From the NCBI GenBank assembly GCA_022566355.1, contig JADFJB010000068.1:1-24273 (forward strand): a stretch of DNA of 24,273 nt, read 5' to 3'. Positions 14,062 through 24,273 of this stretch are shown here, one piece after another; position 1 is the first letter of the stretch; the number at the start of each line of letters is the position of its first letter. The notes under the pieces are model-generated. The model was not told where the DNA came from and did not search any database. It saw only the letters and a program-made list of their open reading frames with translations. The translations under genes and the position numbers were made by a program. The DNA comes from a candidate division KSB1 bacterium (lineage in GTDB: Bacteria; Zhuqueibacterota; JdFR-76; DREG01).

Positions 14062-14493
14062 ATGAATCTATCCGCCCTTGCAAATGTGTTAGGAGGAAAG
14101 AAAGTTCTCAAAAAAGACATACAAAGCCGAATGGATCTGATTGAGCTAAGTAATAAAGGGGTGACGAAAGATGCTCTAATCCATCTGGCAAAATACTTTG
14201 CTTGTTCGGTTAATCAGATAGCACAGCTCCTCCCTGTTACTGAGCGAACGATACAGAGGTACACACCCGGAAAACCCTTTAATAGAATTGTTTCAGAGCA
14301 TATACTACAAATTGCCGAAGTCGCAGCCAGGGGCTCTGAAGTGTTTGAAGACAGAGATAAATTTCTTGCATGGATGAAGCAACCCAGCAAAGCTCTAAAT
14401 AATAATAAACCAATGAGCCTATTAAACTCAAGGTTTGGTAATGATATGGTAATAGATGAACTTGGCCGAATGGAGCATGGTGTGTTCTCTTAA
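14062..14493 (+). CDS. Xre/ParS (DUF2384)-type antitoxin of a RES toxin pair
   Basis: 143-residue cytosolic protein with the layout of the antitoxins that partner RES toxins. An N-terminal helical helix-turn-helix region covers about 30-75 (GVTKDALIHLAKYFACSVNQ then IAQLLPVTERTIQRY). A C-terminal DUF2384-like domain follows (EHILQIAEVAARGSEVFED then FLAWMKQPSKALNNNKPMSL), whose end normally plugs the toxin active site. The ATG has AGGAG 9 nt upstream. Its stop overlaps the toxin start by one base (TAATG), so the two are translationally coupled. It should neutralise the toxin and repress the operon by binding its promoter; I could not identify the operator with confidence. Confidence 0.88.
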   Translation: MNLSALANVLGGKKVLKKDIQSRMDLIELSNKGVTKDALIHLAKYFACSVNQIAQLLPVTERTIQRYTPGKPFNRIVSEHILQIAEVAARGSEVFEDRDKFLAWMKQPSKALNNNKPMSLLNSRFGNDMVIDELGRMEHGVFS

Positions 14494-14948
14494 TGAAAGT
14501 CTACAGAATCGTCAAAACTCGTTATATTAACGGTTTGTCAGGGAATGGGGCCGGTATTTATGGAGGAAGATGGAATCATAATGGTACGAAAATGGTTTAT
14601 GCTTCTGAGAGCAGATCCTTGGCAACTGTTGAATACCTGGTTCATGTGCCTCTATCATTTGTTCCAACCAATCTTAGTTTGGCGACTCTTCAAATACCCG
14701 ATGGAATAACTCAAAAAAAAATCAAAACCTCTGATTTACCCAATAACTGGCGAAAACATCCAGCGCCTTTGATGTTAGCTGAAATAGGAACAAAATGGGC
14801 AACAAAAAAAGAGTCGTTACTGCTCCGTGTCCCTTCTGCTGTTGTTGAGCATGAATTTAACATTCTGATCAATCCGTTACATCCGGAAATACAACATATT
14901 TCCATATTTCAAATTGAAAGATATTTTGTTGACAACCGGTTACTTTGA
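14493..14948 (+). CDS. RES-domain toxin (NAD+-depleting, toxin-antitoxin system)
   Basis: 151 residues, typical for RES toxins. The family begins with YRIVKTRY and SGNGAGIYGGRWN. By comparison with characterised RES proteins, Arg26 (GGRWN), Tyr36 (MVYAS), Glu47 (TVEYLVH) and Ser115 (VPSAVV) are the expected NAD-site residues, and all are present. The final NPLHPEI segment is also typical. Known members destroy NAD+ (hydrolysis or phosphorolysis), stopping growth until antitoxin is made. With all key positions intact and the antitoxin gene directly upstream, the pair looks functional. It lies just after a repeat-rich gap, which fits an accessory, mobile location. Confidence 0.9.
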   Translation: MKVYRIVKTRYINGLSGNGAGIYGGRWNHNGTKMVYASESRSLATVEYLVHVPLSFVPTNLSLATLQIPDGITQKKIKTSDLPNNWRKHPAPLMLAEIGTKWATKKESLLLRVPSAVVEHEFNILINPLHPEIQHISIFQIERYFVDNRLL

Positions 14949-20970: not shown

Positions 20971-22677
20971 ATGCTAAAACTAAAGTCAAAGAAAATTGGC
21001 GAAATTCTGATCAAAAAAGGTTTTATTTCACAAGAACAATTAATTAAGGCTCAGAATGAACAGCGACTTACACAACAGAAATTAGGTTCTATCTTTGTAA
21101 AATTCGGGTATATTACTGAAAAAGCACTAATTGAAACACTCGCAGAGCAGCTTGAAATTCCACATATTGTCCTCGAAGATTATGAAATTGAAGCAGAGTC
21201 CCTCGCATTAATTTCGAATAAAATTGCACAAGAACATCTGGTTTTACCTCTATTTCTCATTGGGGATACGCTTACTCTTGCAATGGCAAATCCTCAAGAT
21301 ATCAGTACGATAGATTCTATCCGTCATCTCACCGGTAAACAAATAGAGCCGGCAATTGCCAGCGAAAGTGACATTAAACGGGCAATTGAACAGCAGTACG
21401 AAATATCTGCTGAAGTAACGAAATCGATGGATGAAGTTATCCAGACGTTATCTGCGGAATCTGAAATATTAGAAGAAGAAATACGTCCCATAGAAGATCT
21501 ACGGCAGATGGCCGAAGATGCACCGGTAGTTAAATTAGTCAACATGATTCTGGCACAAGCTGTTCGAGATAATGCGTCAGACATTCATATTGAACCGGAA
21601 GAAGATATGGTAATGGTACGCTTTAGGGTTGATGGGATATTAAGAGAAATCTTCACCCCGCCAAAGCGACTGCAAGCTGCTATCATTTCGAGACTGAAAA
21701 TCCTCGCCGAAATGGATATTGCGGAAAATAGAGTACCCCAGGACGGACGTTTTCGCATTGGATTGGACAACCGTGAAATTGATCTGCGCGTATCAACCCT
21801 GCCAACTTCATACGGAGAGAATGTTGTTCTACGGATTCTGGATAAAAGCAATGTACTGATGAAAATTGACGATTTGGGATTTGAAAAAGACAACATCGAG
21901 CGGATTGAGCATTTTTTATCGCAATCGTACGGGATCATTCTTGTAACCGGTCCAACAGGAAGCGGGAAGACAACGACTCTATACAGCGCATTAAACAGAT
22001 TAAATTCAGTGGAAAAAAATATTATAACTGTTGAAGATCCTATAGAATATAGAATTAAAATGATCCGACAATCCCAGGTAAATGTCAAAGCGGGAATGAC
22101 ATTTGCAACCGGTTTGAAGGCGATTTTGCGGCAAGATCCGGATATAATAATGGTTGGAGAAATTCGTGATTCAGAGACTGCAAGTATTGCCGTTCAGGCG
22201 GCGCTAACCGGACATCTGGTTTTATCAACTCTCCATACCAATGATGCTGTTGGCTCACTCTCACGAATGGAAGAGATGGGGATCGAATCTTTCCTGCTAG
22301 CGACTGCGACAATTGGTGTTATTGGCCAGCGCCTGGTAAGAAAAATATGTCTCAAATGCAAGAAAGAATTTAAGCCAGGAGCCACACTCTTAAAGCGAAT
22401 TGGCATAGACTCTCAGAATAAAGACTTGAAATTCTACAAAGGTGAAGGCTGCATAGCTTGCAAAGAAAGTGGTTATAAAGGCAGATTGGGTATTTATGAA
22501 ATTCTGAAAGTTGACGATAAATTGAAAGAGCTAATCATAGCAAATGCATCGGCTGAAAAACTAAGGATCGCAGCCATCGACGGAGGTATGACGACCTTAA
22601 AACAAGACGGACTAATAAAGTGCGTTAAAGGGATAACAACAATAGAAGAAGTAATGCGTGTAACCAATATTGACTAA
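20971..22677 (+). CDS. GspE/PilB family secretion/pilus assembly ATPase
   Basis: 568-residue AAA-type ATPase that powers assembly of type IV pili or type II pseudopili at the inner membrane. Residues 1-145 are an MshEN/T2SSE N-domain with two tandem copies of the (R/K)LGxxLxxxGxI...LxxAL motif (near 8-30 and 37-60), which can bind cyclic di-GMP in related proteins. The catalytic part has Walker A GPTGSGKTT 327-335, the Asp box VEDPIEY 354-360, Walker B with Glu397, the His box with His422, and the zinc cysteine pairs Cys460/463 and Cys494/497. The length and all motifs are complete. Start ATG 20971 with weak ribosome site. The following REC gene begins 12 bases after the stop. Whether it is PilB or GspE cannot be decided without the rest of the locus. 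Confidence 0.93.
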   Translation: MLKLKSKKIGEILIKKGFISQEQLIKAQNEQRLTQQKLGSIFVKFGYITEKALIETLAEQLEIPHIVLEDYEIEAESLALISNKIAQEHLVLPLFLIGDTLTLAMANPQDISTIDSIRHLTGKQIEPAIASESDIKRAIEQQYEISAEVTKSMDEVIQTLSAESEILEEEIRPIEDLRQMAEDAPVVKLVNMILAQAVRDNASDIHIEPEEDMVMVRFRVDGILREIFTPPKRLQAAIISRLKILAEMDIAENRVPQDGRFRIGLDNREIDLRVSTLPTSYGENVVLRILDKSNVLMKIDDLGFEKDNIERIEHFLSQSYGIILVTGPTGSGKTTTLYSALNRLNSVEKNIITVEDPIEYRIKMIRQSQVNVKAGMTFATGLKAILRQDPDIIMVGEIRDSETASIAVQAALTGHLVLSTLHTNDAVGSLSRMEEMGIESFLLATATIGVIGQRLVRKICLKCKKEFKPGATLLKRIGIDSQNKDLKFYKGEGCIACKESGYKGRLGIYEILKVDDKLKELIIANASAEKLRIAAIDGGMTTLKQDGLIKCVKGITTIEEVMRVTNID

Positions 22678-22689
22678 AGAAATCATATT

Positions 22690-23088
22690 ATGAAAAAGAA
22701 AAAAATCTTGGCTGTAGATGATGTGCGAGAAACATTACTCGCTCTTAAAATAAGATTAGAATATGCCGGTTACGATGTCTATACCGCTACTGATGGTGAA
22801 GCTGGTTTAAAAATGTCAAGAAATTTAAAACCGGATTTAATTTTGTTAGATGTGATGTTGCCGAAGATTGATGGATTTTCTATCTGTAGATTATTGAAAT
22901 TTGATGAAGAGTATGAGTCAATTCCAATTATTATGCTTACAGCAAAAAGTCAAACCAATGATAAGGAAATTGGAAAGAAAGTTGGCGCAAATGCGTACTT
23001 CACCAAGCCTTATAATGCCAAAGAATTGTTAGAGAAAATAGCAGAGTTAATAAGCAATAAGTTGGCAGCCTTTAATTTTAGTAACTAA
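22690..23088 (+). CDS. Stand-alone response regulator receiver protein (second copy)
   Basis: 132-residue single REC domain: acidic pair Asp10-Asp11 (AVDDV), phospho-acceptor Asp54 (LILLDVMLPKIDG), Thr84 (PIIMLTAK), Lys106 (FTKPYN). No output domain. It closely resembles the REC protein at 19575 along its whole length, the clearest sign of tandem duplication in this gene set. It is sandwiched between two ATPase genes (12 bases from the first, 44 from the next), so it is co-transcribed with both. Confidence 0.9.
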   Translation: MKKKKILAVDDVRETLLALKIRLEYAGYDVYTATDGEAGLKMSRNLKPDLILLDVMLPKIDGFSICRLLKFDEEYESIPIIMLTAKSQTNDKEIGKKVGANAYFTKPYNAKELLEKIAELISNKLAAFNFSN

Positions 23089-23132: not shown

Positions 23133-24273
23133 TTGGCAAAAAAAAATATTTTATTAGGAGATATGCTTCTTGATCAAAGGTTAATCAGTGAAGAAGATCT
23201 ACGACGGGCATTAAAATACCATAGAGATACCGGTAAATTATTGGGCCGATGTCTGATTGAGTTAGGAATCATCGATGAAAAATCTTTGATAAAAGCGATA
23301 AGCGATCAGATGGAGGTGCAATATGTCTCTCTGAAAAAATACAAATTAGATCCGGAAGTATTGGACTTGGTCCCGCGAGAATTTGCGATGTCTCACAGGG
23401 TCTTCCCATTATTCAAGATAGAAAAAAAACTAACTGTGGGGATGGTCAATCCCCTGGATGTAATTGCCATCGATCGCCTTGCTCATATGACAAACCTTCA
23501 GATTGAGTCTGTTGTTTGTCATGAACAAGATATAGAAGATGCAATAGAAACCTACTACAAGGGTGGCGATTCTTTTGAAGAAGCCGAACAGCATTTTGAT
23601 AGCAATGAAGAGGATGAAGAAACTGCTGAACACGATGAATTTAGTTTAAGATTACAAGCAGAAGAAGGACCTGTTATCAAACTGGTTAACATGATTCTTT
23701 TGCAAGCGATTAAAGATGGCGCAAGTGATATTCATATCGAACCCAAAGAAAAATCTTTAATCATAAGATACAGAATTGATGGGATACTTCATGAGGTTTT
23801 AGCGCCGCCTAAAAATATGCAGTTGGCAATTGTATCACGTATAAAAATTCTTTCACAATTGGATATCGCAAACCTTAGGCTCCCTCAAGATGGACGTTTT
23901 CGTTGGAGGCAAGATCGTCATGTCGTTGTTTTTAGAGTTTCCACTTTACCGACGGTATTCGGTGAAAAAATTGTAATGCGTCTCTTGGACAACTCAGATG
24001 GAATTTTGGAATTTCCCAAATTGGGCATCAACAAATCCATGATTGAAGATTTTCAACATATCCTTCATAAACCTTATGGTATTGTTTTAGTTACCGGACC
24101 CACCGGAAGTGGCAAACGTGAGGCTGCCCGCGGGTTCGCCGGAGAGCTGTTCGCACGGGCAGGCGGTGGCGATGATGCCGATCGGCATCGCAGGCTCGCG
24201 AGGTCCGAGCAGCACCCGGACTTGGTGGTTTTCGAGTTCACAGGCGTAACGATAAAGGTCAGAGACGAGCTAC
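23133..24273 (+). CDS. Second GspE/PilB-like ATPase, truncated by a chimeric junction
   Basis: Open frame of 380 codons running off the right edge. Start TTG 23133 is chosen because the tandem MshEN motif then aligns with the paralogue at 20971; an ATG at 23163 is an alternative. Residues about 1-145 are an MshEN-type N-domain, followed by an acidic linker, then the GspE core: GPVIKLVNMIL near 183, ASDIHIEP, DGILHEVLAPP, RLPQDGRF, RVSTLPTVFGEKIVMR and the Walker A start VTGPTGSGK ending at codon 328 (24116). After this the sequence no longer matches GspE: the expected TTTLY is replaced by high-GC sequence read in frame to the edge. Codons 329-380 are therefore not part of this protein in my view. 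Confidence 0.85.
   Translation, partial: MAKKNILLGDMLLDQRLISEEDLRRALKYHRDTGKLLGRCLIELGIIDEKSLIKAISDQMEVQYVSLKKYKLDPEVLDLVPREFAMSHRVFPLFKIEKKLTVGMVNPLDVIAIDRLAHMTNLQIESVVCHEQDIEDAIETYYKGGDSFEEAEQHFDSNEEDEETAEHDEFSLRLQAEEGPVIKLVNMILLQAIKDGASDIHIEPKEKSLIIRYRIDGILHEVLAPPKNMQLAIVSRIKILSQLDIANLRLPQDGRFRWRQDRHVVVFRVSTLPTVFGEKIVMRLLDNSDGILEFPKLGINKSMIEDFQHILHKPYGIVLVTGPTGSGKREAARGFAGELFARAGGGDDADRHRRLARSEQHPDLVVFEFTGVTIKVRDEL
24117..24273 (+). other. High-GC foreign tail, probably a misassembled piece of another genome
   Basis: By hand count 101 of 157 bases are G or C (about 64%), against about a third in the preceding 60 bases. The switch is immediate after the P-loop codons. In the same frame it reads REAARGFAGELF, then an acidic and His/Arg-rich stretch, then EQHPDLVVFE and GVTIKVRDEL. 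That looks like the region after Walker A in a DNA polymerase III delta-prime (HolB-like) protein of a high-GC bacterium, possibly an actinobacterium. The identity is from pattern memory and needs a search. Confidence 0.65.

Follow-up and report, generated by a model that had tools for sequence, protein, structure and literature searches.

The window, the whole 24,273-bp stretch of DNA analysed here, is one complete contig (C68, 1-24273) of a 213-contig draft genome (G000). Towards its right-hand end lie two genes for PilB/GspE-type ATPases with a response regulator gene between them, and the second ATPase gene passes at its Walker A motif into a fragment of a different gene. The features are as follows.

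20971..22677, + strand: intact first PilB/GspE-type ATPase gene (full-length T2SSE, 475 bits), the paralogue used to judge what the second lacks at its 3′ end
22690..23088, + strand: response regulator gene between the two ATPase genes (gene order as in the relatives' loci L030 and L033)
23133..24116, + strand: second PilB/GspE-type ATPase gene, 5′ part only, with MshEN and with T2SSE up to the Walker A Lys (Pfam and TIGR matches, orthologue)
24105..24116, + strand: ambiguous junction word GGAAGTGGCAAA (GSGK), which may come from either parent, between GspE-type Thr codons on its left and a HolB-type codon on its right
24117..24273, + strand: foreign 157-bp tail reaching the contig end, a piece of the holB gene of an Acidimicrobiia-like actinobacterium, which encodes the DNA polymerase III delta′ subunit (HolB models, Acidimicrobiia matches)

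The second ATPase gene and its neighbourhood

On the + strand, an ORF at 23133-24272 remains open through the window end, with no stop before the contig ends. Its residues 1-328 are those of an MshEN-containing ATPase of the PilB/GspE type. In Pfam, 23133-24113 matches T2SSE at 4.7e-49 and MshEN at 5.5e-21, and TIGR02538 matches the ATPase part (23133..24116) at 1.6e-89; the MshEN domain and the N-terminal part of T2SSE that mark a PilB/GspE ATPase are thus both present. These 328 residues agree with the family (T2SSE, PF00437; TIGR02538/TIGR02533, MshEN domain) and with its orthologues, and the gene order is conserved. In contrast to the PilB/GspE assembly ATPases, the ORF lacks everything past the Walker A Lys and carries Arg in place of Ser/Thr. 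Its T2SSE profile match ends at position 155 of 370 and the catalytic C-terminal half is absent.

A homologue of the left part was present in 49 of the 59 genomes searched, the window's own genome included. The orthologue of the second ATPase in a genome of the same family (G001) shares 72% identity and has kept the gene order. The succession of HDOD gene, first ATPase, response regulator and second ATPase is common to the window, G001 and a further genome, G002, in which the second ATPase is intact (563 aa) and genes for an NtrC-type regulator and GspF come after it. As the response regulator is placed alike in the relatives, the left flank is genuine and colinear with theirs. Judged by these sequence comparisons, 23133..24116 is genuine host sequence, and wherever the rest of the contig was compared, it too looks sound. 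Elsewhere in the window, at 14062-14948, lies a RES-Xre toxin-antitoxin pair, with a RES-domain toxin (PF08808) immediately after an Xre/MbcA/ParS-type antitoxin (PF09722, PF20432).

No fragment of the missing C-terminal T2SSE half was found in the host draft genome. The next contig was also sought through the downstream genes. A search of the draft for a GspF-like match to protein P0002, run without a positive control, returned none, and a search with the NtrC-type regulator was swamped by paralogues. By similarity to the regulator from G002, about 20 NtrC-type regulator genes are present in the host draft.

The junction and the foreign tail

Across the junction the ORF reads ...GIVLVTGPTGSGK followed directly by REAARGFAGELFARAGGGDDADRHRRLARSEQHPDLVVFEFTGVTIKVRDEL. 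The Lys codon AAA of GPTGSGK occupies 24114-24116, the first non-GspE codon, CGT, occupies 24117-24119, and the reading continues CGT GAG GCT GCC. At this point the initial annotation of the DNA had described an abrupt in-frame switch inside the Walker A motif, from a GspE-type ATPase matching its paralogue up to the P-loop into unrelated sequence of about 64% GC. The alignment to the paralogue at 20971..22677 indeed stops at GPTGSGK, with 24116 as the last base, and in all 19 related loci examined, orthologous or paralogous, the similarity likewise ends precisely at residue 328, the P-loop Lys. In these loci the GPTGSGK words continue as [ST]T[TS]LY without exception (27 of 27). The GC content is 38.2% (GC3 33%) to the left of the junction versus 64.1% (GC3 69%) to the right, close to the value first given. 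A close relative carrying the same fusion, which would speak against an artefact, was looked for, and a PilB-HolB fusion is absent from all 19 related loci examined.

Instead of the GPTGSGK[ST] form of the Walker A motif, the fusion has an Arg after the Lys, as do many HolB relatives. In P-loop ATPases, the Ser/Thr at this position is needed for Mg-ATP binding. Thus, with Arg replacing it and the catalytic half lost, the fusion product would be a dead ATPase.

Together with the P-loop, the tail matches the HolB models NF005926 (1.4e-08) and TIGR00678 (8.6e-08) as a fragment, far under the full-length cut-offs; the tail alone, without the P-loop, gives no significant Pfam match. It corresponds to the N-terminal region of HolB, and it is similar to HolB of the GPxGSG[KR]R form seen in Acidimicrobiia, starting at the P-loop, including the HPDL region and extending to the contig end. 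It differs from a HolB gene in comprising only about 60 residues within the 157 bp before the contig ends, in having no start codon of its own and in sitting in a foreign contig. The best genome match (G258) belongs to the class Acidimicrobiia, at 65% amino acid identity and E 5.5e-20, and its HolB aligns without a gap from the P-loop on, at 67% over 57 residues. At the nucleotide level, identity to the best Acidimicrobiia relative is 75% over 100 bp. Within this class, 52 of 395 genomes match the tail at 1e-8 or better. A draw from the tail's whole phylum gave matches at 1e-10 in 6 of 396 genomes, all six of which were also found in the Acidimicrobiia search. The first named match is an Acidimicrobiia MAG, isolate ErkenSummer_bin-0525 (L028). 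The donor genome was not found in the collections searched, where the best relative reaches 65% amino acid identity.

Apart from the window itself, the host's own phylum (59 genomes, host and relatives) yielded no convincing match to the tail; the sole extra match (E = 0.0065) contains three stops and is spurious. The viral contigs searched contain no relative of it, and in the host genome it is single-copy, confined to the window. The host's own holB lies on contig C2 and its dnaX on contig C60; with these copies elsewhere and the relatives devoid of a convincing match, an origin of the tail from the host's own holB was rejected. The tail, described earlier as unrelated sequence, is identifiable as HolB from an Acidimicrobiia-like source. 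Neither this gene identity nor the source clade was visible to the initial annotation from the letters alone, and nor was the fact that the window stops at a contig end.

The position of the breakpoint and the length of the word common to both parents were assessed by aligning the codons of 20 Acidimicrobiia HolB genes with the junction. Within VTGPT, both Thr codons (24093-24095 and 24102-24104) are GspE-type and absent from the 20 HolB relatives, and the CGT at 24117 is a HolB-type codon. The relatives carry P, R, S, H, A or D, never Thr (0/20), at the GPT position, and Val in 20 of 20 where GspE has the other Thr. As neither Thr is ever found in the HolB relatives, the breakpoint most likely lies within or at the edge of 24105-24116, to go by codon type. 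Counted back from the AAA Lys codon, 0-6 nt of the window are matched exactly in the 20 genes; one relative has CGGAAGTGGCAA in common with it and then AAG. The word shared by the GspE gene and the true donor would thus probably be no longer than about 12 nt, with an upper limit of about 22 nt.

Base composition and contig ends

Only 157 bp separate the junction from the contig end, and no upstream 157-bp stretch of the contig exceeds 58% GC. In a survey of GC change points at 198 ends of 101 contigs, out of 213, the end of C68 ranked second, and only that of C180 was larger. The GC log-likelihood ratio was 26.1 at the C68 end versus 27.6 for the top interior control. Because interior controls reach the same strength, we rejected the GC change point as sole proof of a chimera; it is homology that makes the case. 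At the C180 end (L177), the first ~390 bp belong to a TPR-repeat gene of 61% GC that runs off the contig, in a genome of 40% GC. From six-frame translations only, this gene and the low-GC region upstream of it look native. The ends of C138 and C140, which also have GC steps, look like ordinary coding ends on the same six-frame basis. An imperfect inverted repeat of about 90 bp and 62% GC, single-copy in the genome, lies at the end of contig C184 (L181, 5868-5964) and appears attC-like by eye.

Two pairs of contig ends, C132/C183 (L129, L180) and C104/C156 (L101, L153), overlap by exactly 127 bp, and none of the draft ends surveyed shares a longer exact overlap. These two pairs suggest that the draft came from a de Bruijn assembler whose last k was near 127.

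Origin of the junction

Halves from different lineages meeting at the tip of a contig mark a misassembly as the GUNC paper (PMC8201837) defines it, a chimeric contig within a metagenome-assembled genome. As in such contigs, fragments from two sources share one contig, here at its tip. Unlike them, the break keeps an open frame at homologous codons and passes as a fusion protein. In the literature on assembler chimeras at contig ends we found only general statements.

We have very little doubt that the junction is an artefact, in which an Acidimicrobiia holB fragment was attached at the P-loop codons to a chromosome with an intact second PilB/GspE gene; it is almost certainly an inter-phylum chimera from library preparation or assembly, not biology. 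The real chromosome would keep this second gene intact, its 3′ part not having been recovered in the draft. A holB fragment of an unrelated, co-sampled high-GC actinobacterium (Acidimicrobiia) would have been joined to it at the GSGK codons, 24105-24116, and would have survived as the contig's final 157 bp. Because the two genes meet in codon register at a Walker A motif conserved in both, the ORF is not interrupted. The data show what the two halves are, that they belong to different phyla, that the contig ends nearby, that relatives lack the fusion and that the 3′ part is missing. At which stage the chimera formed we infer from the junction word and the contig ends: the source of the join was most likely a chimeric template or read at a short common word, or else an early misjoin at small k, and given the short exact words in the HolB relatives these fit better than a collision at a long k-mer.

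A biological origin has to be set against this. Microhomology recombination at the P-loops in the sampled population, with transfer from an actinobacterium giving rise to a real PilB-HolB fusion, would explain the open frame, and the sequence itself forbids nothing of the kind. We nevertheless regard it as highly improbable, as the junction is so close to the contig end, the fusion is missing from the relatives, Arg stands in for the Walker A Ser/Thr and most of the ATPase domain would have been lost from an otherwise conserved operon. A real event would also require that DNA of two phyla met at a single point and that the contig, by chance, ended right after it, which argues for an artefact. 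Still more improbable, to the point of being negligible, is that 24117-24273 represents a mobile element or GC-rich island of the host and not HolB. GC steps of similar size do occur at other contig ends of this genome, but the specific HolB similarity is continuous through the P-loop, Acidimicrobiia relatives reach 65% amino acid identity and the tail has no second copy in the genome.

Within the artefactual reading, two routes compete. We rather favour a chimeric molecule or read that arose when the two sequences annealed through a short word, while the DNA was amplified or the library prepared, and that became the contig tip as the sole extension at a coverage gap. The common word of the parents is probably short, and the 157-bp tail is of the order of a read length, although a lone chimeric read is usually removed as a tip. 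The alternative, an assembler misjoin at a k-mer (a 21-mer or so) over GPTGSGK that was kept by later rounds, is a tentative second choice. It accounts for a junction lying in frame exactly at a homologous conserved word of both genes, and GGACCCACCGGAAGTGGCAAA is exactly 21 nt long, so that a shared 21-mer would be possible if the donor HolB had GPT with the same codons. Against it stand the HolB relatives, none of the 20 of which has Thr at that position and whose longest exact run to the Lys codon is 6 nt, and the 127-bp contig-end overlaps suggesting a large final k. The usual minimum k of assemblers is 21, and the expected common word is at or below this length. A common word short for a k-mer collision, together with a final k near 127, thus puts the chimeric template or read on a par with the k-mer misjoin, if not ahead of it. 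Chimeras from multiple displacement amplification mostly have overlaps of 3-13 nt, with 12-13 nt preferred as templates (PMC5372508), and such overlaps would fit if the sample was amplified. The apportioning between template or read and k-mer misjoin is rough, and the verdict of an artefact is unaffected by it. The initial annotation had foreseen a false fusion protein of artefactual origin, and the different phyla, the nearby contig end, the lack of a fused relative and the broken Walker A motif bear this out. It had attributed the fusion to a misjoin at a common k-mer. The junction does fall at the P-loop word, but a k-mer collision is not evident, with 6 nt or fewer shared by the HolB relatives. 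Thus, that annotation was right on the artefact and possibly wrong on the exact mechanism.

The relevance of the junction is one of data quality only. Through a chimeric contig tip of this kind, a false fusion protein could enter protein databases. A conserved P-loop can act as a frame-keeping crossover point, and genes that run off contig ends just past the Walker A motif deserve suspicion.
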